The notes under the pieces: model-generated
Seen by the model: only the letters and a program-made list of their open reading frames with translations
The model's database searches: none
What the model was told of the DNA's origin: nothing
Origin: Trueperaceae bacterium
Lineage (GTDB): Bacteria > Deinococcota > Deinococci > Deinococcales > Trueperaceae
DNA: 56,065 nucleotides
Direction: 5' to 3'
NCBI GenBank assembly: GCA_020431825.1
Contig: JAGQHN010000022.1
Coordinates: forward strand, 1-56,065
Part shown: positions 512-23,292 of the stretch, piece after piece
Layout of the letters: every line of letters begins with the position of its first letter
How positions within the stretch are numbered: position 1 is the first letter of the stretch
Made by a program: the position numbers and the translations under genes

Positions 512-892
512 TTACTTAGGTGCGTAGGCAACCATGTCAATTTCGATGAGTAAGCCTAACCTCGCCAGAGGTGTACCTACCGTCGTTCTGGCTGGAGGTG
601 AATCTGGGAAATAACTGCGGTAGACCTCATTCATAGCGGCAAAGTTATTGACATCAGTCAGGTAAACATTAACTTTGACGACATCATCAAAGCTAGCATC
701 AGCAAGGGCAAGGGCTGCCTGACAATTCTTAAAGACTTGATGGGCTTGCTCACTTACGTTTGACCCCACGATATTCCCACCACTATCAGTGGGTACCTGT
801 CCTGAAATGTATACGGTGTCTCCAGCACGTACAGCTGGCGAGAGGGGGACACTTGAGCTGGCGTTTTTGTGGTTAAAGATTTCTCGTGGCAT
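512..892 (-). CDS. ridA: RidA family reactive intermediate deaminase
   Basis: This 126-residue protein has the usual length of the RidA/YjgF/UK114 family. It matches through VYISGQVP (residues 27-34), the conserved PPARTTV with Arg102, and E117 near the C-terminus; the Arg and Glu are the residues that bind and hydrolyse imines in the family. RidA trimers hydrolyse 2-aminoacrylate and related enamine/imine products of PLP enzymes to keto acids and ammonia. I chose the ATG at 892 because AGAAAGGA lies just upstream. An in-frame ATG at 934 would add 14 unlikely residues and overlap the upstream gene. It sits between an epimerase and a PLP enzyme in one operon. Confidence 0.92.
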   Translation of the reverse strand: MPREIFNHKNASSSVPLSPAVRAGDTVYISGQVPTDSGGNIVGSNVSEQAHQVFKNCQAALALADASFDDVVKVNVYLTDVNNFAAMNEVYRSYFPDSPPARTTVGTPLARLGLLIEIDMVAYAPK

Positions 893-903
893 GCTTTTCC
901 TTT

Positions 904-1611
904 CTACCTGATGGGTCTGGCTTTGGGCGCCCAATTTAGGAGACGCCTGGCTTTTGACATATTCATGAGTTTTTCTTCGTAATCGCCACTAATCATAAAG
1001 GTTTGAAAACCAGCTTTAAGCTCGAGCCCGGCTAACATGGCATTTGCAACATCTTCATCAACTGTGGCAATTGTCGGCGTTCCTGCAACAGTTTCCTCGA
1101 GCCATTTTTCTCTGGCGGTAGGTAAGCAAAGTCTCAGCGCAGTTATATTCATGCCCCAGCGGCGGCAGGCATTACGGCAGACTTCTTCGCCCAGCCATTT
1201 GGTAAAGCCATAAAGATTGGTTTCATCAGACGTAATTTCTTCATCTGAAAAATAGCGGTTATGCAGATTGGCATAAACCGACATACTGCTACAGTAGACC
1301 GCTTGTTTTATGCCATCAGAAGCTGCTGCCTTTAGCGCAAAATGAAGGCCTTTGACATTGGCATCAAACCCTGAGTTGGTGCCGGGCCATTCATCCCAGT
1401 CAAGGCTTCCCATAGCCATATAAACCAGAGCATCCAGGCCTTTGCTGGCTTTTAACAGGGCTTCATGATCGGTAACGCTGCCATGAAAATAGTCAAGACT
1501 TTCATCCTGTGGAGGACGCAGGTCAAAGACGCGCAGCTGGTGTTTTTCTTTTAAAAAAGGGGTGACCAAAGAACCAACAATGCCACTCCCACCAATGAGT
1601 AAAACCTTCAT
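904..1611 (-). CDS. NAD(P)-dependent epimerase/dehydratase family protein
   Basis: The 235-residue extended-SDR protein starts with the Rossmann motif GGSGIVG (residues 7-13). It has the catalytic pattern with S108/S109 (YCSSMSVY) followed by Y134-x3-K138 (YGFTK). This is the layout of nucleotide-sugar epimerases and sugar dehydratases. At 235 residues it is shorter than most (about 310) because the C-terminal substrate lobe is reduced, so a small uronate- or lactone-type substrate is possible. It lies 8 bases after the SIS gene in the same operon. The reaction is not determinable from sequence alone. Confidence 0.85.
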   Translation of the reverse strand: MKVLLIGGSGIVGSLVTPFLKEKHQLRVFDLRPPQDESLDYFHGSVTDHEALLKASKGLDALVYMAMGSLDWDEWPGTNSGFDANVKGLHFALKAAASDGIKQAVYCSSMSVYANLHNRYFSDEEITSDETNLYGFTKWLGEEVCRNACRRWGMNITALRLCLPTAREKWLEETVAGTPTIATVDEDVANAMLAGLELKAGFQTFMISGDYEEKLMNMSKARRLLNWAPKARPIR

Positions 1612-1619
1612 AGAACTCC

Positions 1620-2375
1620 TTAACCACTCTTGATTTTGCGTAAAGGAAATGAGGCCAAGCGTGGCCAGTATGTATCGATCATCGTTTGATTATGTGCGTC
1701 GCCTGCGGGTACGTTGGCACTTACCAGAACTGGGGGTGTTTGCCCTGCCTGAGCAAGATTAAAGGCAGTTTGGGTCACGATGGCATTTAAGATGGCCACG
1801 CCCGTCAAGGTGGAAGATGGACCCACTTTAAAGGAGTAACCAGGAATGTCTATACCTGCGTCTCCATCTGAACCGCAATTGTCCAGCACATAATCAGCAC
1901 ATTCGTAAAGCTTTTTACCCGAAGAATGTCTTGACTTCGCCTCCTGAGACTGAGCCAGATTGGTGAGAGCGATGACCTTTGCCCCCTGCGTTTTTGCCCA
2001 CATAGCAATTTCAATAGGCAAAGGGTTGATACCAGAGTTCGATATAACCAGCAGCAAATCGCCGCGTTCAACAGGATAGTTTTCTATAAAGGTTTCAGCA
2101 AAGCCCTCGAGCCTTTCAGCACTGCCCATACTTGGATCGTGAATGGTCATGACAGGGGCAAGGCCGCCCGCACGGAAATAGAGTTCTCCGGCAATGTACC
2201 TCGAGTGCCCAGAACCAAAACTATAAAGTAGGTGATTTGCCTGAATTGCCTTTGTCCAAAGCTCAGCGACTTCAGTCATAACAGATAGTTGGGAGTTTAG
2301 AATCTCAGCGAGTTGCTGATTTGCTAAATCAAAATACGCTTTTATGCCGCTCTGCACAAAGCCATCCTTTCCCAT
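1620..2375 (-). CDS. SIS-domain phosphosugar-binding protein (UPF0309-like)
   Basis: The 251 residues form one SIS (sugar isomerase) domain with FGSGHS at 53-58, ISNSG at 111-115 and KVGPSSTLTG at 183-192; the serine/threonine-rich loops bind the sugar phosphate. The motif YFRAGGLAPV matches the UPF0309 group, whose members cluster with amino-sugar transport and catabolism genes. A role as amino-sugar-phosphate isomerase or etherase is likely, by context. The ATG at 2375 has a poor ribosome site. The GTG at codon 7 (2357) is preceded by GGAAAGGA at good spacing and may be the true start. It follows the permease gene at 2394. Confidence 0.87.
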   Translation of the reverse strand: MGKDGFVQSGIKAYFDLANQQLAEILNSQLSVMTEVAELWTKAIQANHLLYSFGSGHSRYIAGELYFRAGGLAPVMTIHDPSMGSAERLEGFAETFIENYPVERGDLLLVISNSGINPLPIEIAMWAKTQGAKVIALTNLAQSQEAKSRHSSGKKLYECADYVLDNCGSDGDAGIDIPGYSFKVGPSSTLTGVAILNAIVTQTAFNLAQAGQTPPVLVSANVPAGDAHNQTMIDTYWPRLASFPLRKIKSG

Positions 2376-2393: not shown

Positions 2394-3233
2394 TTAACCT
2401 TTAAGGGCTCCAGTGGTAAGACCACTTTGTATTTGTTTCTGAAAAATGACATAGACGATGAGGGTTGGCACCATAATGATGGTTAGGGCAGCAAACAGCG
2501 CACTCCAGTCATTCTGGTAAAACTGCTTGGCGAGCATGAAATAAAGCCCTTGCGATAACACATATTTGTCTTCGCTGGTGACCAGAACCAGGGGCAAGAT
2601 GTACTGATTCCACATACCTAAAAAGTTAAAGATACCCATGCTGATAAGACCAGGAGAGGCAAGCGGTAACATGACTCTAAAAAAGACCTGATATTCATTG
2701 GCACCATCAATAATGGCAGCTTCCTCGAGCTCAGTGGGCAGAGTCTTAAAAAAGCCGGTCAGAAAGAAAATGGTAAAGGGCAGTGAATAGGCTATATAGA
2801 CCAGAATCAAGCCCTGAAACGTATTTAGCATATTCAAGGAATTGACCAGCGAAAAAAGCGGCACCAGCGCAAGAAAAACAGGGAAGAGCATGCCGGCTAG
2901 AAAGAGATAGAAAATGGCCCGATTACCCACAAAGTCAAACCTTGCCAGTACATAGGCCGCCATGGCCGAGATGATTAGGGTAAGCAGGAGGGCCGGTATG
3001 ACTACGATTACCGTGTTAAAAAAGAAATCACCTACATGGGCACTGGTCCAGGCTCTGGCAAAATTATTCCACTGTAATTCTTTGGGAAATGACCAGGGGC
3101 TAAAAAAAAGCTCCTGATCGGTTTTAAATGAGCTGAAGATCATCCAGAGCATAGGAAAAATAACGGCTATCGACCAGATAATCAAAACCAACTGCGTAAT
3201 AAAGCTGCTCCAGCGACTTTCCTGGTTGACCAT
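2394..3233 (-). CDS. Carbohydrate ABC transporter permease, MalG/NgcG type
   Basis: This 279-residue inner-membrane permease of the MalFGK class has about six membrane segments. The EAA loop that docks on the ATPase is at residues 171-190 (EAAIIDGANEYQVFFRVMLP). It lacks the large P2 loop and matches MalG-type length. Together with the permease at 3243 and the binding protein at 4182 it forms a sugar importer. No ATPase gene is present in this operon, so it probably uses a shared MsiK-type ATPase coded elsewhere, as Streptomyces NgcEFG does (established knowledge). It lies 9 bases after the partner permease. Confidence 0.93.
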   Translation of the reverse strand: MVNQESRWSSFITQLVLIIWSIAVIFPMLWMIFSSFKTDQELFFSPWSFPKELQWNNFARAWTSAHVGDFFFNTVIVVIPALLLTLIISAMAAYVLARFDFVGNRAIFYLFLAGMLFPVFLALVPLFSLVNSLNMLNTFQGLILVYIAYSLPFTIFFLTGFFKTLPTELEEAAIIDGANEYQVFFRVMLPLASPGLISMGIFNFLGMWNQYILPLVLVTSEDKYVLSQGLYFMLAKQFYQNDWSALFAALTIIMVPTLIVYVIFQKQIQSGLTTGALKG

Positions 3234-3242
3234 AGCGGACTC

Positions 3243-4124
3243 CTAAAACTCGATGGTTTGGCGCCGAGTTACGCGCATGAGAACAAAAGATAAGAACATG
3301 ACAATCAGGAAATAGGCCATAGCGATAGCGGTTGCGTAGCCAAAGCGGCTATGGGTAAAGGCTTCGCGGTAAAGCAAGGTTGCCAGCACATCGGTTGCGA
3401 GGTCTGGGCCAGCCTCACCAATCGTCATGGTGAAAGTGATGCCAAACATGTTCATGGCATTAATAACGATAAAGACAAGGGCTGAACGGGTGGTTTCCCA
3501 GAGCAGTGGCAGGGTAATTCTGAAGAAAATATTGCCTCGAGTCGCGCCGTCCAGGGCAGCAGCTTCGTAAAAAGAAGTTGGAATAGACTGCATACCAGCC
3601 ATAAAAATAACCATGTAAAAACCAGCAGCCTGCCAGATGGTCACTGCCGCAATAGCACCCAGAGCCGTGTTTGGGTCACCCAGCCAGACCGGAGGATTGC
3701 TAATGCCAATAAGTTTTAAAAAAGCATTGAGGATGCCAATACTGGGGTGATAAACAAAACTCCATAAAATACCAATGGCGACCACAGACATAACCTGTGG
3801 AAAGAAGAAAGTAACGCGGTAGAAATTACTAAAGCGCACTTTCTGGGTAATCATAAAAGCTAAAAATAAGGCAAAACCTAGAGTAACAATAGGCAGCACA
3901 ACAACATAAATTCCATTGTGATAAAGCGCGTTCCAGAAATGGTCATCGCCTAAGAGCTTTTGGAAGTTCTCGAGCCCTACAAAGCGAGGTGCCCGGCGCA
4001 AACCTCTCCAGCTGGTAAAGGCAATGTACATGGCCTGTAAATAGGGATATAAAACAAACGTCCCATAAAGAATGAGCGCAGGAGCCAAAAAGGGAATAAT
4101 GAGGCTGTATTTTCGTCGTCGCAT
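3243..4124 (-). CDS. Carbohydrate ABC transporter permease, MalF/NgcF type
   Basis: This 293-residue inner-membrane permease has six predicted helices. The first begins near residue 8, the N-terminus is short and basic (MRRRKYS), and the EAA loop is at 187-207 (EAAALDGATRGNIFFRITLP). It is the MalF-side half of the sugar importer; the MalG-side half follows directly. It is separated from the upstream binding-protein gene by 57 bases holding a perfect 28-base palindrome (4135-4162), which may lower expression of the permeases relative to the binding protein. Confidence 0.93.
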   Translation of the reverse strand: MRRRKYSLIIPFLAPALILYGTFVLYPYLQAMYIAFTSWRGLRRAPRFVGLENFQKLLGDDHFWNALYHNGIYVVVLPIVTLGFALFLAFMITQKVRFSNFYRVTFFFPQVMSVVAIGILWSFVYHPSIGILNAFLKLIGISNPPVWLGDPNTALGAIAAVTIWQAAGFYMVIFMAGMQSIPTSFYEAAALDGATRGNIFFRITLPLLWETTRSALVFIVINAMNMFGITFTMTIGEAGPDLATDVLATLLYREAFTHSRFGYATAIAMAYFLIVMFLSFVLMRVTRRQTIEF

Positions 4125-4181: not shown

Positions 4182-5576
4182 TTATGAACGCTCGTACTTA
4201 GGAATATCTGGGTCGTTTTTAACGTCGTCAGCGACTTCTTGAACCCGCTCAACAAATTCTTCAGCCGTGGCACGACCAGTGAGCAGTGCGCCCATACTGA
4301 GCTTCGCTTCTTCGTTAAGGTCTGAGTACCAGGTGGTATAAGAAGGGCGAGAAAGAATGTCGTTACCCGCTTGTTCTACCACTGACAGGGCAGAAGTCAT
4401 AGCTGAACTCAGCTCAACACCTTCAGCACCACCCACAACTGGCATAATAGAGCCGACATTTTGGGCAAACCACTTGGCGCTTTCTTTGGAGAGCAAGCAG
4501 CGCAGGAATTCCATACCAGCCTCTGGGTTTTTACCATTGGCAAAGACCATAAATGGCTCGCCAGCACTGGCAATTACGCTATGCAATTTGGCGGCGTCAT
4601 CGGCAGGAACAGCTTCAATCACCATGTCAAAACCTTCTGGTGTAATGCTGCGCATTTCGTTTTCCAACCAGGTACCGCAAGGTAAGAAGGCGGCTTTTTG
4701 TTGGAGCCACTCAGCCTGAGACTCGGTGTGGGTCAGGCCTTCCGTGCCGTCCATGATATAGCCATTATCATAGAGGGCTTTCATGTTGTTAAGCGAGGTC
4801 AAAATGGCTGGATGGCTCCAGGCGCCGTCCTCGAGGTTATCGACAGCTTTCCAGACATCTGGGCCACCAATTTTCTCAACCATTGGCTCTAAAACACCAA
4901 ACTGCATGTATTGTGGGTACTTACCTTGATAAGTCCAGGGAGCAATACCTGCGGCCTTGATATTATCAGAAAGGGCTAGCATTTCATCCCAGGTTGTGGG
5001 GTAAGTCCAGCCTTTTTCTTCAAACAAGGTCTTGCTGTGCCAGATGCCGAAAACGGTATAGGCAATATTGACATAGCGCTGAACGCCATCAAAGACACCG
5101 TCGGCTTGTGAACCAGGGAAGAGGGTTTCAGCAAAGGTTTTTCCTGGCGTATCGAGGGCAGGAGCACTCATAAGGGGAGCAAGGTCTAAAAGTTCTCCTT
5201 CGGCGACCAGGGCAGCGGTATCTAAGTTGCCGGCACCACTGTTGTCAATCACATCAGGCGGATCGCCTGCAATAATGCGTGGACGAAGTCTCTCGCCCAC
5301 ACGCTGAATACCTTCAACTGACATCGTGCTGCCTTCATGAATCTGAGCAAAAATGTCAGCGGCATACTGAATGTATTCGTGACCAAAGCCACCGCTAAAG
5401 AAAACGCCTTCAGCCTGAACATTGGCAATGTTGAAGGGGTTTAGTGCGCCATCTGCAACCTGAATTCCAGTTTGAGCATAGGCCAAACCAGGAGCAAATC
5501 GCCCGAGGCTGGCACCGGCACCAGCCGCTGCTGCAAGTTTTAAAAATTGACGTCTTGACAGGGGTTTTTTAAGCAT
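4182..5576 (-). CDS. Tat-exported sugar ABC transporter substrate-binding protein (NgcE-like)
   Basis: The 464-residue protein opens with a twin-arginine signal (SRRQFLK at residues 7-13, a hydrophobic Ala/Gly stretch, and cleavage probably after AYA). No lipobox cysteine is present, so it should be soluble in the periplasm. The mature part is a family-1 extracellular solute-binding protein. Segments such as VIDNSGAGNLDTAALVAEG and LDTPGKTFAETL closely resemble, from memory, NgcE, the GlcNAc/diacetylchitobiose-binding protein of Streptomyces. AAGGAGA precedes the ATG. It is the first gene of the leftward operon, with its promoter and operator at 5721-5771. Use of an amino sugar is inferred from resemblance and the SIS gene, not proven. 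Confidence 0.9.
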   Translation of the reverse strand: MLKKPLSRRQFLKLAAAAGAGASLGRFAPGLAYAQTGIQVADGALNPFNIANVQAEGVFFSGGFGHEYIQYAADIFAQIHEGSTMSVEGIQRVGERLRPRIIAGDPPDVIDNSGAGNLDTAALVAEGELLDLAPLMSAPALDTPGKTFAETLFPGSQADGVFDGVQRYVNIAYTVFGIWHSKTLFEEKGWTYPTTWDEMLALSDNIKAAGIAPWTYQGKYPQYMQFGVLEPMVEKIGGPDVWKAVDNLEDGAWSHPAILTSLNNMKALYDNGYIMDGTEGLTHTESQAEWLQQKAAFLPCGTWLENEMRSITPEGFDMVIEAVPADDAAKLHSVIASAGEPFMVFANGKNPEAGMEFLRCLLSKESAKWFAQNVGSIMPVVGGAEGVELSSAMTSALSVVEQAGNDILSRPSYTTWYSDLNEEAKLSMGALLTGRATAEEFVERVQEVADDVKNDPDIPKYERS

Positions 5577-5720
5577 ACTTTATCTCCTTGGGAAAAGCTC
5601 GAGAATCTTTTATCTTCACAGACTTCTGTGCTAGGGTCAGTGCTTTCACCTCCTAAAGACTAGCTCGCTGATTCATCAGTATATAGAAAGAGACACATTG
5701 GTCCGAAGCTATATCCATTC

Positions 5721-5771
5721 CTTTGAGCGAATTTGAGCGTTACTATACCTTACGCTCAAATTTGAATCAAG
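5721..5771 (-). promoter_or_regulatory. Promoter plus DeoR-type operator for the leftward sugar operon
   Basis: On the reverse strand a -35 box TTGATT (5765-5770) and a -10 box TATAGT (5742-5747) lie 17 bases apart. The inverted repeat TGAGCG (5734-5739) / CGCTCA (5753-5758) brackets the -10 box, with a second TGAGCG copy at 5724-5729. A bound repressor would cover the promoter. Almost the same sequence recurs at 19921-19971 in front of the deoR-type gene, including the tail ATTCAAG-like segment. The leader to the ATG at 5576 would be about 155 bases. Confidence 0.8.
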
Positions 5772-5859: not shown

Positions 5860-5907
5860 TTGACATTACTGGTATAGGGTTGGTATATTCGCTCATGAAA
5901 CATTCAA
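5860..5907 (+). promoter_or_regulatory. Promoter of the rightward peptide-transporter operon with operator half-site
   Basis: TTGACA (5860-5865) and TATATT (5884-5889) are 18 bases apart, a near-consensus sigma-70 promoter. Directly after the -10 box comes CGCTCATGAAACATTCAA (5890-5907). It matches the right half of the 19921-19971 operator (CGCTCAGAAATGATTCAAG, also directly after a -10 box). The left TGAGCG half is missing here. The remaining DNA between 5577 and 6068 holds the other operator, a CTCGAG at 5598 and 5928, and the leader with GGAGG in front of 6069. Confidence 0.7.
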
Positions 5908-17118: not shown

Positions 17119-18288
17119 TTATGTCATGACGGTGAAACTTGTCTTTAAGTCCTGTGCCTGCCCTGTCTCTGCCGAGCGGTACGCTGATTCAATAATGTCA
17201 ATAACATGCCGGGCGTGCTCGGCGGTAGCCAGACTGGGTTTATCGTCTAAAACCCAGTCAACCAGTTGCATGACATCTTCAAAGACGTGCGCTTCTTCTA
17301 CGTCTTCATGAGCGCCATTGACATGGGGTAAAGAAGCTGCGTAGCCCTTTTTCTCTGCTACTTCTCGTTTGGGGTAGTCGATGACTTTATCATTGAAACT
17401 GGCCCCATTTATGACGCCTTTGGTTCCAAAAATAAGAGGTCGCCCCATGTTTGGTAGGCTGCCAAAGGCTACCCCATAAACAAAGGCATAAAAGGCATGA
17501 CCAAAGTCCAGAACCATCATGGTTTGATCGTCCATGTCAGTAGGGAGAATCTGGCCCATAAATTCACGTTCTTTAAGGCGAACTCCGGAAAAAGCCGTGA
17601 CGCGTTTCGCCGGGCCAAGTACCGCTGTCATGGCATGAAGGCCGTAAACTGTCATGTCATAGAGGGGCCCACCGCCAGGTTTTCTGAAGTACCAGGCAGG
17701 GTTAATATTGCTTAAAGGGGTATCGCCCTGCCTGACGCTTTTTTCTTCTTCGTGGTAGCGCCCAAAGCTCGAGCCCGTAACTGCCCAGGTCAGCGTGCCT
17801 AAAGCACCCTCTTGTATAAGCTGGCGAATTGCTTGTAAGCGAGGATTAATCAGCTCACCCGGTGAGGCAACGAGCCTGACATTTTTCTCTTTAGCTAAGG
17901 CAATAAGTTCATCTGCCTCTGCGACCGTGGTGGTCATGGTCTTATTAAAATGCACGTGCTTACCGTGTTCTATAGCCAGTTTACCTTGCGCAAAATGCAG
18001 ACCTATGGGTGAGGCAATGCTCAGGGCGTCAAGGTTTGTCGCCTCAAGCATTTCTTCCATGCTGGCATAGGCAGCCGGAATATGGTATTTCTCGGCGGCT
18101 GCCTGTGCACGTTCAAAAACAGGGTCACAAAGAGCCGCAATTTGAACCCGGTCTGAAACATCCGCCATGGTTAAATGAGGCAGTAAGCCCCGCAAGGTAA
18201 TGCTACCTGTACCGACGATGCCAAGTTTTAAGGGCGCTTTCAACGTATTACCAGTCCATGAGTCATGACTTGAGCAGGTTCCAGGCAT
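17119..18288 (-). CDS. Gfo/Idh/MocA family oxidoreductase
   Basis: The protein is up to 389 residues long and has a Rossmann motif GIVGTGSIT. The hallmark EKP is replaced by NKT (HVHFNKTMTT); the active-site Lys is kept. The substrate domain contains PGGGPLYDMTVYGLHAMTAVLG. The ATG at 18288 overlaps the upstream gene by 26 bases and adds about 15 residues ahead of the fold. A TTG at 18243 is an alternative start nearer the Rossmann strand. It probably acts on the product of the neighbouring sugar isomerase; the exact reaction is unknown. Confidence 0.88.
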   Translation of the reverse strand: MPGTCSSHDSWTGNTLKAPLKLGIVGTGSITLRGLLPHLTMADVSDRVQIAALCDPVFERAQAAAEKYHIPAAYASMEEMLEATNLDALSIASPIGLHFAQGKLAIEHGKHVHFNKTMTTTVAEADELIALAKEKNVRLVASPGELINPRLQAIRQLIQEGALGTLTWAVTGSSFGRYHEEEKSVRQGDTPLSNINPAWYFRKPGGGPLYDMTVYGLHAMTAVLGPAKRVTAFSGVRLKEREFMGQILPTDMDDQTMMVLDFGHAFYAFVYGVAFGSLPNMGRPLIFGTKGVINGASFNDKVIDYPKREVAEKKGYAASLPHVNGAHEDVEEAHVFEDVMQLVDWVLDDKPSLATAEHARHVIDIIESAYRSAETGQAQDLKTSFTVMT

Positions 18289-19108
18289 CCTGAAGCATGG
18301 TCATGCTTTTAGGAACAGCGGTTTGGGGGGCTTCTTTACCTTCCATTTCAACCGAGAGATAACCTTTAAAGCCTGCGTCATTAAGGATGCGCAAAATGCG
18401 TGGGTAATCAAGGGGGATGGTAAAGACCTCACCACCACCCGGATAGGTCTTGGCGTGAGCCAGGTCAACCCATGGCGCGATTTTCTCCATTGCAGTATAC
18501 ATATCACCGTCAAAGTAGAAGTTGCCCATATCTAGAATGGCACGTAGCCAGGGAGAGTTGATCGTTTCTAAAATGCGCAGCATGCCGTCGGCAGTGGTGG
18601 TTAAACCCCAGTGGTTTTCTAAAAGTAGCATGACGCCTTGTTTCTGAGCATGCTCGAGACAGGCGCTTAAACCCTCAATAGCCCAGTTAAAGCCATCATC
18701 GTGAGTGAAACCCTCCCAGGGCGTGGTCCAGCCTCGAGTTTCTTTCAGATCTTCCCAACCACCCCGGCGCCAGGCACCGGCATTTATCCGAATAGAGGGT
18801 ATGCCTAAGTCATGCGCCAGATCAATGCAGTGTTTACTATGGTCAACATTCTGTTGTCTGGTTTCTTTATCATCCCAGACAAAATCCTGGCTGGTACCAA
18901 AGTTATACAGGCTTAGCCCATTTCTAAAGGCATGCCGTTTGAGGCTTTGTAAGTAGCTATTGTCTTCACTTTCTAATTGCTGGTGCAGGATTTCTACTCC
19001 CATAAAGCCCATTTCAGCTGCCTGATCAAAAATAGACTCGAGGCTTACTTTTTCTGGTGTGAAGTGCCAGAAGGAATAGCTCGAGACACCTAAACGCAAA
19101 TGTTTCAT
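18263..19108 (-). CDS. Sugar phosphate isomerase/epimerase (xylose isomerase-like TIM barrel)
   Basis: This 281-residue protein has the AP-endonuclease-2/xylose-isomerase-like barrel fold, with metal-binding features GVEILHQQ near residue 37, LLLENHWG near 161, ILDMGNF near 190 and LSVEMEG near 254. These are the Glu/Asp/His positions that bind the divalent metal in ketose epimerases. AAGGAG precedes the ATG. It lies 15 bases after the DeoR-type gene and overlaps the oxidoreductase, so the three are co-expressed. The substrate is probably a keto-sugar or keto-acid sugar. Confidence 0.9.
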   Translation of the reverse strand: MKHLRLGVSSYSFWHFTPEKVSLESIFDQAAEMGFMGVEILHQQLESEDNSYLQSLKRHAFRNGLSLYNFGTSQDFVWDDKETRQQNVDHSKHCIDLAHDLGIPSIRINAGAWRRGGWEDLKETRGWTTPWEGFTHDDGFNWAIEGLSACLEHAQKQGVMLLLENHWGLTTTADGMLRILETINSPWLRAILDMGNFYFDGDMYTAMEKIAPWVDLAHAKTYPGGGEVFTIPLDYPRILRILNDAGFKGYLSVEMEGKEAPQTAVPKSMTMLQDAWNLLKS

Positions 19109-19123: not shown

Positions 19124-19909
19124 TTATATTTCGACATTTCTTTCGCTTTGTCCAAGACCGTGGACTCGGACACCCTGTTGACAGAACTGAGCAACCGTTC
19201 TTGGATTTGCCTTGGGATCGGTGATGAGATGGTTAAGCTCATGAATGGGTACAGCCACATGACTGGCTTCGGCCTCAAATTTACTGCTATCTGCCACAAT
19301 GAAAACGTCTCGAGCAATTTTGGCCATGCTGCGGTAGAGATAGGCATTGGCTTCATAGATAGACAGGGCACCAAATCTGGGGTCAAGGGCATTAACGCCA
19401 ATAAAGACTTTATCTACCACATGGGTTGATAGATTCTCGTGGGCAGTAGGGCCAATGCTTTCCATGTTGGCGTAGTCCAGATTGCCGCCGAGCAAACTTA
19501 GTCTCAGGTTTGGAAAATTAGCAGCTTCCTGAACAACAATTAAATTGTTTGTAACAATAAAGACTTTTTTACTTTGCTGAGCAAGGGCTCTGGCAATATA
19601 GAGGGTGGTTGTACCTGCGCCCAGCAAGACTGCCTCACCACTATTTATAAAGCTGGCGGCGATGTCGGCAATATAGGTTTTCTGTTTAATGTTGATCTGA
19701 GCGCGACGTTCAAAGGAAAGTTCAAAGTGATTTTTGCGGCTGAGTTTGGCACCACCGTGAAAACGCTCAATATGACCACTTTCCTCGAGGCTTTGCAGGT
19801 CGCGCCGTATGGTAGCAGGGGAGACGTGTGTTTTGGCCAAAAGCGTTTCAATATCGACCAGTGCCTGATCTCTAAGCATATCCAGAATCTTTTTTTGCCT
19901 TGCATTCAT
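19124..19909 (-). CDS. DeoR/GlpR family transcriptional repressor
   Basis: This 261-residue regulator has an N-terminal DeoR winged helix (residues 1-57, SPATIRRDLQSLEESGHIER). Its C-terminal sugar-phosphate-sensing DeoRC domain contains LLGAGTTTLYIARAL and VDKVFIGVNALDP. Such repressors let go of DNA when a sugar phosphate binds. Its own promoter lies inside an operator at 19921-19971 that is nearly identical to the operator at 5721-5771 in front of the sugar-transport operon. It therefore most likely represses itself, the divergent galactokinase-family gene and the transporter operons. The ATG at 19909 is about 25 bases from the predicted start of transcription. Confidence 0.93.
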   Translation of the reverse strand: MNARQKKILDMLRDQALVDIETLLAKTHVSPATIRRDLQSLEESGHIERFHGGAKLSRKNHFELSFERRAQINIKQKTYIADIAASFINSGEAVLLGAGTTTLYIARALAQQSKKVFIVTNNLIVVQEAANFPNLRLSLLGGNLDYANMESIGPTAHENLSTHVVDKVFIGVNALDPRFGALSIYEANAYLYRSMAKIARDVFIVADSSKFEAEASHVAVPIHELNHLITDPKANPRTVAQFCQQGVRVHGLGQSERNVEI

Positions 19910-19920
19910 CGGCAGGTTCC

Positions 19921-19971
19921 CTTGAGCGTTTCTGAGCGTAACTATATAATGCGCTCAGAAATGATTCAAGC
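19921..19971. promoter_or_regulatory. Overlapping divergent promoters with DeoR-type operator
   Basis: Leftward: -35 TTGAAT (19964-19969) and -10 TATAGT (19941-19946), 17 bases apart. Rightward: -35 TTGAGC (19922-19927) and -10 TATAAT (19945-19950), also 17 apart. The two -10 boxes overlap. The operator TGAGCG (19933-19938) / CGCTCA (19952-19957), with another TGAGCG at 19923-19928, surrounds both. One bound repressor would block both the deoR-type operon and the galactokinase-family gene. The layout matches 5721-5771 almost base for base. Confidence 0.82.
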
Positions 19972-20010: not shown

Positions 20011-21354
20011 ATGAGCGCAGCCGATAAGCACTTTGTTTTCCTAAACACCATCTATTCGCAGCAGGTAGCTGGACAGCGAGAGCGTTATCAACAGGCGCTG
20101 CAACTTTTTAGAAGCCTTTATGGGGAAGGAGAGGTGCATATCTTTCGGGCACCAGGTCGGGTAAACCTGATTGGTGAACACACCGATTACAATCATGGTT
20201 TTGTCATGCCAGTGGCACTGGATAGAGATACTGTGGTTCTGGCGAGGGCCAGGGCTGATAGCCAGCTTCATTTAAGTAATGTTGAAGCAGAGTTTGAGAT
20301 CTGTCAGTTTGAGATAACAGAAAACATTCCGCTGGCGCCAAATAACCACTGGTCAAATTATGCAAGAGGAGTAGCGCAACATTTAAAGCATAGGCTTTCT
20401 CGCCCTATAAAGGGTGCTGATTTGCTGGTTGTCGCTGAGGCTCCCTGGGGAGTGCCGAGAGGCGCGGGCTTAAGCTCATCCTCTTCGCTGACCATTGCCA
20501 TTATGCTTGCCTTAACCGAACTGAACGGCTGGACTGGGTCTACCGCAGAGCAGGTTCAGCTTGCCTCCGATGCCGAGTGGTATGTGGGTACCAGAGGCGG
20601 CATTATGGATCACTATATTTCGCTCGAGGGTCAAAAAAACCATGCCCTGTTTCTCGATTGTCGCCCTGTAGCGGGAAGCTATCAGAGTCAACCCATTCCT
20701 CTGTCAGAAGGCTATGACTTGCTTATTATCAACAGTGGCGTAAAACATCAGAATGTTGGGGGAGGCTATAATTGGCGGGTAGCGGCTTGCCGTGCGGGAG
20801 TTGGGCTATTAAAGGCCCAATTTCCTGAGATCACCCATCTGCGGGATGTTCAGTCGGTACCCTGGGAGGTGCTCGAGCCACATCTTCCCGAGAAACAACT
20901 GGTGTCAGAACTTACGGCTCAGGGTACTGATCTTGATGATATTCCAACGCTTGTTCCCGAAGCCGTTCTGGAAGTTCGCGCTAAGTGCCGTCATGTTCAC
21001 TCGGAAAATGAACGAGTACAGGGTGCGATTGAGGCAATGTATCAGGGAAACGTGACCCGCCTAGGTCAGTTGTTAAGTGCTGCTCATCTGAGTGCCCGCG
21101 ATGACTACGACATAAGCTGTGCGGAACTCGAGCTTTTGCAGAGCTTTTTGCAAAAACAAGAAGCTGTTCTTGGGTCGCGCTTAACGGGTGCAGGCTGGGG
21201 TGGCTGCATGGTTGCCTTAAGCAAACGAGAATCAAGTCAGGAGCTGGCTCGAGCCGTTCAGGCTTACTACCATGAGGCTACGGGTATTGTGGCAGAAACA
21301 TTCGTTTGTCAGGCAAGTCAGGGTGCTGGGCTGCTTACCACGCTTACGGTTTAA
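20011..21354 (+). CDS. galK: Galactokinase family (GHMP) sugar kinase
   Basis: This 447-residue GHMP kinase has the galactokinase signature GRVNLIGEHTDY (49-60), the ATP loop GAGLSSSSS (151-159), the catalytic Asp at 200 in GIMDHY and the third motif TGAGWGGCM. It phosphorylates the anomeric hydroxyl of a galactose-type sugar. Usual galactokinases have GGF and MDQ where this has AGW and MDH. The regulatory context (DeoR operator, amino-sugar-type importer) leaves N-acetylgalactosamine or another amino sugar as possible substrates. It is transcribed from the bidirectional promoter at 19921-19971, with AGGTG before the ATG. Confidence 0.88.
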   Translation: MSAADKHFVFLNTIYSQQVAGQRERYQQALQLFRSLYGEGEVHIFRAPGRVNLIGEHTDYNHGFVMPVALDRDTVVLARARADSQLHLSNVEAEFEICQFEITENIPLAPNNHWSNYARGVAQHLKHRLSRPIKGADLLVVAEAPWGVPRGAGLSSSSSLTIAIMLALTELNGWTGSTAEQVQLASDAEWYVGTRGGIMDHYISLEGQKNHALFLDCRPVAGSYQSQPIPLSEGYDLLIINSGVKHQNVGGGYNWRVAACRAGVGLLKAQFPEITHLRDVQSVPWEVLEPHLPEKQLVSELTAQGTDLDDIPTLVPEAVLEVRAKCRHVHSENERVQGAIEAMYQGNVTRLGQLLSAAHLSARDDYDISCAELELLQSFLQKQEAVLGSRLTGAGWGGCMVALSKRESSQELARAVQAYYHEATGIVAETFVCQASQGAGLLTTLTV

Positions 21355-21497: not shown

Positions 21498-21542
21498 CAC
21501 AGTTTGCCTATTCCTTCCATCAGCACATTAGGATAAACTGTG
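21498..21542 (+). promoter_or_regulatory. Inverted repeat over the potB-like start codon
   Basis: CACAGTTT (21498-21505) and AAACTGTG (21535-21542) are exact inverted repeats 29 bases apart. The right arm contains the GTG start (21540), and the loop side holds the ribosome site AGGA. If folded in RNA it would hide the start; as DNA it could be an operator. The rest of the gap 21355-21539 shows nothing clear. Confidence 0.4.
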
Positions 21543-22397
21543 CGAATGAATCGTAAGGACTACAAAGGCTTCTGGCTGGGCTTTCCAGGAATGTTCTGGC
21601 TTTTAGTGTTTTTTACGTTGCCGCTTCTCTTTGTTCTGTTTGCCAGTTTTATGACCAAAGGCACAGGAGCGACGGCAACTTTACCCTTTACGCTCGAGCA
21701 CTACACGCGCACCCTGACGGTCTTTGGTCCAATTGTTTGGCGCTCTGTGGTTGTTGCTCTACTCACCACTTTAGCCTGCCTCATTTTGGGTTATCCGCTG
21801 GCTTTTTTTATCAGTACGCGTAAAAGTCCCAGGATGCGCTTACTCATGCTGTTCCTGATACTTTTACCCTTCTGGACAAATTTTCTGGTCAGGACGTATG
21901 CCCTAAAGTCCATTCTTGGTCCAGAAGGCATTTTAAACACCCTACTCCTAAAATTGTCTTTGATTACCGAACCCCTAGCCCTCCTTTTTACCCAGTTTTC
22001 AGTCATTCTTGGGCTGGTCTATGGCTTTTTACCTTTTATGGTCTTACCCATTTACGCTGCGGTTGAGCGGCTTGATTTTCGTTTTGTTGAGGCTGCCAAT
22101 GATCTGGGTGCAAATGACTGGGACAGCTTCTGGCGCGTCATATTTCCCTTAACCTTGCCAGGTGTCGTTGCGGGGTCGATGCTGGTGTTTATTCCTTCGA
22201 TTGGTTCCTTTGTGACCCCCGATTTGCTCGGCGGAACCAAAGGACTTCTGATTGGCAATTTGGTGGCGCGCCAGTTTGGTGGTCGCGGTAACATTCCTCT
22301 AGGTTCTGCCATAAGCATGGTGATGATAGTGTTAGTTCTGATTGGCGTGGTTATTTATTTGCGCTTTGGTCAAGAGGAGGCGTCAGGTCGTGGCTAG
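21540..22397 (+). CDS. ABC transporter permease, PotB/spermidine-putrescine type
   Basis: This 285-residue inner-membrane permease has six helices and the docking loop EAANDLGANDWDSFWRVIFP (about residues 181-200). It closely matches the polyamine/iron/opine class (PotB). The GTG at 21540 has AGGA seven bases upstream; an ATG at 21546 is the alternative. It forms a pair with the next gene. No matching ATPase or binding protein is coded in this window, so the pair either borrows components or has been separated from them. Confidence 0.9.
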   Translation: MRMNRKDYKGFWLGFPGMFWLLVFFTLPLLFVLFASFMTKGTGATATLPFTLEHYTRTLTVFGPIVWRSVVVALLTTLACLILGYPLAFFISTRKSPRMRLLMLFLILLPFWTNFLVRTYALKSILGPEGILNTLLLKLSLITEPLALLFTQFSVILGLVYGFLPFMVLPIYAAVERLDFRFVEAANDLGANDWDSFWRVIFPLTLPGVVAGSMLVFIPSIGSFVTPDLLGGTKGLLIGNLVARQFGGRGNIPLGSAISMVMIVLVLIGVVIYLRFGQEEASGRG

Positions 22398-23292
22398 TCG
22401 TTCTCAGGCAGGTATGGAGATAAATCAGGGCAAGCTAGCCAGGGACATGCTTATTCGTCGGCTGGGCAATTTTGGACTGCTGCTATCTCCCATTGTGAGT
22501 TACTTTTTCCTTTGGGCACCTATTGTTGTCCTGATCGTTTTTTCTTTTAACGATGCAGCTTCCGTTTCGGTCTGGCGCGGTTTCACGTTTAAGTGGTATC
22601 AGCAGATTTTTGCAGCTGGGTCAGGAGATGCCAGTTTTGTTACGGAAAAGTTGCTCGAGGCTCTTGGCAATTCCTTGTTTGTCTCTCTAACAGCGTCGCT
22701 TTTAGCAACGACCATTGGTACCATGCTGGCAATTGCGATTCACCGTGGTAACTTTCCGGGGCGCCGGATTATTGATGGTTTACTCTATGTGCCTGTGGTC
22801 ATTCCTGAAATTACTCAGGGCGTTTCGCTGGCGATCTTTTTTCGGATTATCTTCGAGTATGTACAAACGATGACCGGGCAGAGGCTAACCCCCGGTTTTG
22901 CGACCATCATCATTGCCCATGTTGCCTTTAATATTTCTTATGTCGTCATTGTGGTTCGTGCTCGCCTTGCAACGATGAACACTAACTATGAGGAAGCTGC
23001 CAGAGACCTGGGTGCCAATAACTTTCAAACCTTCTGGCGCATTACATTTCCACTGCTCCTGCCCGGTATTCTCGCGGGTGGTCTTTTAGCGCTGACCCTT
23101 TCCCTTGATGATTTTGTGGTGACCTTTTTTACCAAAGGCGTTGGTGATGATACTCTGCCCATCTTTGTCTATGGCATGCTCAAGCAGCGTGTTTCGCCGG
23201 AAATCAATGCGATATCTACGCTGATGATTTTGGCCTCTACAGTGCTTATTGGCTTCTCCCTGATTTTGCAACAACGTGGTACCAATGACTAG
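22390..23292 (+). CDS. ABC transporter permease, PotC/spermidine-putrescine type
   Basis: This is the second permease of the pair, about 300 residues, six helices, with docking loop EAARDLGANNFQTFWRITFP. SLDDFVVTFFTKG near the C-terminus is characteristic of PotC. The GTG at 22390 overlaps the upstream stop, and GAGGAGG sits at good spacing. The earlier in-frame ATG at 22342 would overlap the upstream gene by 56 bases. No terminator is evident downstream. Confidence 0.9.
   Translation: MASRSQAGMEINQGKLARDMLIRRLGNFGLLLSPIVSYFFLWAPIVVLIVFSFNDAASVSVWRGFTFKWYQQIFAAGSGDASFVTEKLLEALGNSLFVSLTASLLATTIGTMLAIAIHRGNFPGRRIIDGLLYVPVVIPEITQGVSLAIFFRIIFEYVQTMTGQRLTPGFATIIIAHVAFNISYVVIVVRARLATMNTNYEEAARDLGANNFQTFWRITFPLLLPGILAGGLLALTLSLDDFVVTFFTKGVGDDTLPIFVYGMLKQRVSPEINAISTLMILASTVLIGFSLILQQRGTND

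Follow-up and report, generated by a model that had tools for sequence, protein, structure and literature searches.

Conserved operator-promoters at two loci point to an autoregulated DeoR-family sugar regulon in a Trueperaceae bacterium

Introduction

Two similar stretches of about 50 bp lie 14 kb apart in the genome of a Trueperaceae bacterium, one (site B) before a DeoR-type gene and the other (site A) before a transporter operon. Are both operators of a single regulator and, if so, of which one, and over which genes? We addressed this question in a window of 56,065 nucleotides, the whole stretch of DNA that was analysed, and in genomes of the same family. Sequence, conservation, genome specificity and gene content were obtained directly. 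They make it very probable, in our judgement, that the DeoR-family repressor encoded at 19124-19909 uses sites A and B as its operators, both of which coincide with core promoters, in an autoregulated system presumably released by a sugar and with site B apparently bidirectional.

Results

Both sites combine three half-sites with an embedded promoter

The sites share a common core, TGAGCG-N4-TGAGCG-N13-CGCTCA, with identical spacings, and on the minus strand each carries TTGAWT followed after exactly 17 bp by TATAGT. The elements are arranged as follows.

5724-5770, minus strand: site A, operator-promoter of the NgcE-type transporter operon
5724-5729, 5734-5739 and 5753-5758, plus strand: site A half-sites TGAGCG, TGAGCG and CGCTCA
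5742-5747: ACTATA of site A, the leftward -10 TATAGT on the minus strand
5765-5771: AATCAAG of site A, holding the leftward -35 TTGATT (5765-5770, minus strand)
19923-19969, minus strand: site B, operator-promoter between deoR and galK, with three half-sites and a leftward -35/-10
19923-19928, plus strand: site B half-site 1, TGAGCG; the preceding T completes a rightward -35, TTGAGC (19922-19927)
19933-19938, plus strand: site B half-site 2, TGAGCG, a direct repeat at 10 bp
19952-19957, plus strand: site B half-site 3, CGCTCA, inverted
19964-19969, minus strand: leftward -35 TTGAAT for deoR, inside ATTCAAG (19964-19970)
19941-19946, minus strand: leftward -10 TATAGT for deoR (ACTATA on the plus strand)

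Read on the minus strand, site A is TTGATTCAAATT-TGAGCG-TAAGG-TATAGT-AA-CGCTCA-AATT-CGCTCA and site B is TTGAATCATTTC-TGAGCG-CATTA-TATAGT-TA-CGCTCA-GAAA-CGCTCA. Each element that an earlier note on this DNA had listed (tandem TGAGCG, CGCTCA, ACTATA and an ATTCAAG-like segment, equally spaced) is present in both sites, as is the reverse-strand -35/-10 pair that it had placed inside the operator. The sites agree at 37 of 50 bases, where the runner-up match to site A in the window reaches 27 of 50. The 50-bp length given in the earlier note needs a small adjustment, as the conserved unit measures about 47 bp. Counting the usual 7 bp, transcription of deoR is predicted to start at ∼19934.

The third half-site confers specificity

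With up to three mismatches, the two-box pattern TGAGCG-N13-CGCTCA proves nothing, since it occurs in the window at background level (23 matches against 20 expected). Its exact form is confined in the window to sites A and B, and is found at three places in the 5.63 Mb genome, which makes the two-box form by itself no more than moderately specific. The genome scan for this pattern, which the earlier note had proposed, is thus too loose as it stands; with the third box included (18 fixed bases), the only two exact matches in the genome are sites A and B.

We rejected the two-box pattern as a regulon signature on account of its third exact match, C66:27988, which is flanked by another DeoR gene on one side and an amidohydrolase/SIS/binding-protein operon on the other and has no third box, -35 or -10. 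Because this place matches two boxes and lacks the third, the third box is needed for the regulon motif. The palindrome there (L063 3989-4013) has an equivalent before the orthologous sister operon (L125 642-666), and it is probably the neighboring DeoR paralogue's own operator, outside the present regulon.

Also set aside was TTGAWTCA-N4-TGAGCG, which is exact at sites A and B only and gives 80 matches with up to two mismatches against 41 in controls. A further half-site near 5891, before a divergent SBP5 gene, was judged to be due to chance because the sister intergenic stretch examined (L050) has only the three core half-sites. The nagA/kinase clusters (C12, C560) yielded no three-box match with up to three mismatches.

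Motif and regulator occur in the same genomes

The independent proof of the observation, at the level of sequence, is conservation in other genomes. In the sister species G001, 47 of 50 bases of site A and 48 of 50 of site B are kept before orthologous genes, with site-specific bases retained in each orthologue, and the flanking 10-bp blocks are scrambled, mostly with 1-5 of 10 positions matching. Both operons are syntenic in the sister, with protein identities of ∼70-91%. The exact three-box core occurs there at three places, namely before the orthologous deoR/galK, before the orthologous ngcE and before a second ngcE copy. This second operon (L065, G001:C803) encodes a 78% identical protein, the range for its ngcE transporter genes being 76-81%, and its 35-bp core is letter for letter that of the first G001 ngcE operon.

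The ngcE-operon leader (window ∼5640-5660, minus strand; L050, L053) carries a strong AGGAGGTG about 70 bases before the gene start. All three ngcE leader copies retain it even though they diverge around it, as does any peptide they might encode.

We searched 39 family genomes for a 47-base pattern of promoter and boxes, allowing up to three mismatches and using reversed-pattern controls. The pattern was found in this genome (G000), G001 and G010 only, always with no mismatch, and at up to three mismatches the 36 other family genomes were empty, as were the controls. A DeoR orthologue is encoded in exactly the same three genomes. A random draw would hit this trio among 39 genomes about once in 9,000 times, a figure to be read in the knowledge that G000 and G001 belong to one genus and are not independent. 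The three positive genomes themselves supplied the sites from which the pattern was derived, so the weight lies with the 36 empty genomes and with the location of both G010 sites on the deoR contig.

The G010 orthologue is 59% identical and stands before a BadF-type kinase; the gene adjoining it reads, by eye, as a GH3-type glycosidase. Across the 3.8 Mb of this genome, TGAGCR-N23-CGCTCA is exact at two places, and the 3.6-kb contig that bears deoR holds them both. At one of them the -35, the three boxes (TGCTCA as box 2) and the -10 all keep their spacing; at the other, just before deoR, one box has decayed to TAATCA and the promoter boxes are weak. The full operator-promoter (L062 44-90, G010:C451) faces the contig end, beyond which a regulated operon is predicted.

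Because they are conserved in relatives only where the repressor gene occurs, sites A and B are very probably its operators. The proposal that this DeoR protein controls its own gene together with a remote transporter operon is borne out at this level by the sites kept over orthologous genes in the sister and by the agreement of motif and regulator in 39 of 39 genomes. On the same grounds, the binding motif predicted earlier stands as a candidate, with the third box as a necessary part.

The regulator and the genes under the two sites

The genes around the two sites are listed below.

512-934, minus strand: Rid-family (enamine/imine deaminase-like) protein, end of the transporter operon
904-1611, minus strand: NAD-dependent epimerase/dehydratase-like protein, transporter operon
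1620-2375, minus strand: SIS-domain protein, relative of NagS (SCO4393)
2394-4124, minus strand: two sugar ABC permeases of the transporter operon
4182-5576, minus strand: NgcE-type solute-binding protein (TIGR03851, 475.6 bits, above the equivalog cut-off of 399.65)
17119-18288, minus strand: Gfo/Idh/MocA oxidoreductase, in line after deoR
18263-19108, minus strand: TIM-barrel sugar isomerase/epimerase-like protein, in line after deoR; same order in the sister (L016)
19124-19909, minus strand: deoR, DeoR-family regulator of 261 aa (HTH_DeoR and DeoRC)
20011-21354, plus strand: galK, galactokinase-like GHMP kinase (TIGR00131, above cut-off)
21540-23292, plus strand: two PotB/PotC-like ABC permeases, after galK

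The deoR product belongs to the DeoR family, scoring above cut-off for both PF08220 (8.7e-17) and PF00455 (1.1e-37). Its best NCBIfam model is AgaR (NF040755), for which it scores 167.3 bits, below the cut-off of 260. The three orthologues resemble one another in the recognition region, SxATIRRDLQxLE, and a search by sequence found no PDB relatives of the protein. A conserved operator stands before both the regulator gene and the target operons, as in a DeoR-type autoregulated regulon.

The SIS-domain protein is identical to NagS at all nine catalytic or phosphate-binding residues compared (H53, S54, R64, S91, E94, S119, S121, D179 and N228). SCO4393 is the GlcNAc-6P dehydratase NagS, which turns GlcNAc-6P into 6P-chromogen I and whose reaction has been described as limited to Streptomycetaceae (PMC12680351). 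These residues alone do not prove NagS activity, because 3cvj, another relative, appears to keep most of the NagS motifs too. A NagS-like SIS protein with conserved catalytic residues occurs in Trueperaceae, with a Rid-family gene in the same operon.

Together in one operon, the NgcE-type transporter and the NagS relative suggest amino sugars. The galactokinase-like gene, whose product has galactokinases and GalNAc kinase as PDB relatives, and the NgcE/NagS-like genes point to different sugars. From this gene content, an amino sugar (GlcNAc or GalNAc) is our best guess at the ligand class, favored with modest confidence, and galactose is a possible alternative. The permeases after galK are ∼90% conserved in the sister species, and no binding protein or ATPase was found beside them.

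A probable second, opposed promoter at site B

The earlier note overlooked a predicted plus-strand promoter that overlaps site B. Its -10, TATAAT (19945-19950), lies 17 bp after the TTGAGC at 19922-19927, so that TTGAGC-17-TATAAT points toward galK both here and in the sister species. The TATAAT overlaps the opposed leftward -10 by two bases, and half-site 1 would serve as its -35. At the equivalent place, the plus strand of site A has TTGAGC-17-TACCTT or TAACTT and thus no rightward promoter. The galK leaders differ between this genome and the sister and, by eye, have no good ribosome-binding site.

Transcription of galK is predicted to start at ∼19957, 23 bp from the predicted deoR start, and 23 bp is a common start spacing among bidirectional promoters (PMC12825309). 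Such promoters have overlapping symmetric -10 elements and divergent starts 7-25 bp apart; the sequence of site B fits, with its predicted spacing of 23 bp, in each of two closely related species. Because the rightward TTGAGC-17-TATAAT is present and conserved in the sister, site B looks like a bidirectional promoter of the 23-bp class that also serves galK. This added promoter is the most interesting detail of the regulon. We tentatively propose, giving it slightly less than an even chance, that site B is a compact 47-bp fusion of three half-sites, two opposed -35 elements and two overlapping -10 elements, in which one autoregulatory complex controls galK as well as the operon of the repressor itself; the paralogous site A would then retain the operator with a single promoter, the other having been lost or never present. 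If true, this would be a clear case of joint evolution of an operator and a bidirectional promoter, and the regulon would be one in which an NgcE-type importer is combined with a NagS-like enzyme in an organism other than Streptomyces.

Discussion

Could the two sites be read mainly by another regulator, for example another DeoR paralogue? The genome holds several, and the one on C66 adjoins a similar two-box palindrome that is kept in the sister. We regard this as unlikely, however, since the family has many other DeoR proteins and yet the full pattern is restricted to the three genomes with this orthologue; the C66 site, moreover, has neither the third box nor the embedded promoter. It is very unlikely that the DeoR protein acts instead as an activator or dual regulator through the same sites: a few members of its family do activate, and NCBIfam includes an L-fucose operon activator, but here the boxes cover the core promoter and predicted start, where a bound protein should block polymerase, and DeoR-family sites mapped in Caldicellulosiruptor imply repression (PMC8579813).

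The resemblance of the sites, 74% identical over 50 bp and each with a plausible sigma-70-type promoter, might also reflect a duplicated promoter, similar by descent and under no common regulator. This is hardly credible, given that what stays invariant is the half-sites, which are not leftward promoter elements and of which the outer one lies beyond the predicted start, downstream of it. Site-specific bases persist in each orthologue amid scrambled flanks, and G010 retains the boxes in a different gene setting.

We therefore return to repression by the DeoR protein encoded beside site B. Proteins of this family bind as oligomers (PMC10991401), and their sites overlap promoters or leaders, at which they act as repressors (PMC8579813). 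Here, as the boxes flank and overlap the -35 and -10, steric repression is the simplest reading. We infer binding, repression, transcription starts and ligand as follows. Without the sugar ligand, a repressor oligomer would bind the three TGAGCG/CGCTCA half-sites, two direct at 10 bp and one inverted, and from positions on and between the -35 and -10 would keep RNA polymerase off. Occupancy of site A would shut the NgcE-type transporter operon (5576 to ∼512), and occupancy of site B the repressor's own operon (deoR, TIM barrel and oxidoreductase). The plus-strand promoter of site B would drive galK and the two permeases, and if site B is bidirectional, one bound repressor would therefore silence both directions. 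A phosphorylated (amino) sugar formed after uptake would release the repressor.

A literature search for this regulon or motif returned nothing specific in the collection searched. The regulon is well supported and newly mapped, and it is an ordinary kind of bacterial switch that leaves the general picture of DeoR-family repressor action unchanged. For an uncultured Deinococcota lineage, it supplies a well-supported pairing of regulator and operator whose motif is open to testing; it also links an NgcE-type transporter and a NagS-like enzyme through one regulator. Site B adds a small natural case of what is probably an autoregulated bidirectional promoter.

Among known systems, the RhaR regulons of Chloroflexus, Rhizobium and Thermotogales are likewise local sugar repressor regulons with short-box operators recognized by comparative genomics (PMC3870299). 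The sites of RhaR, also of the DeoR family, are repeats at 10-11 bp periodicity, in tandem (TCGAAA in Chloroflexus), whereas here TGAGCG forms two direct boxes and one inverted, with a promoter inside. E. coli AgaR, the DeoR-family GalN/GalNAc repressor and best NCBIfam match, is also an autoregulator of several operons in an amino-sugar context, but the deoR product falls well short of its cut-off (167 against 260), and no aga PTS genes were seen here. At E. coli PacrA/acrR (PMC12825309), a single symmetric -10 region serves both a repressor gene and, in the opposite direction, its target operon, and the repressor shuts off the two together, as we propose for site B; AcrR, in contrast, is of the TetR family, and site B differs in its predicted 23 bp start spacing and in a half-site that would double as a -35. 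The Streptomyces NgcEFG transporter for chitobiose/GlcNAc (PMC6167110) has a binding protein of the same family as ours, and Streptomyces NagS (PMC12680351) has its counterpart here in the NagS-like protein with conserved catalytic residues. In the present case a single operon encodes the two, its operator is of the DeoR type, and the host belongs to the Trueperaceae.
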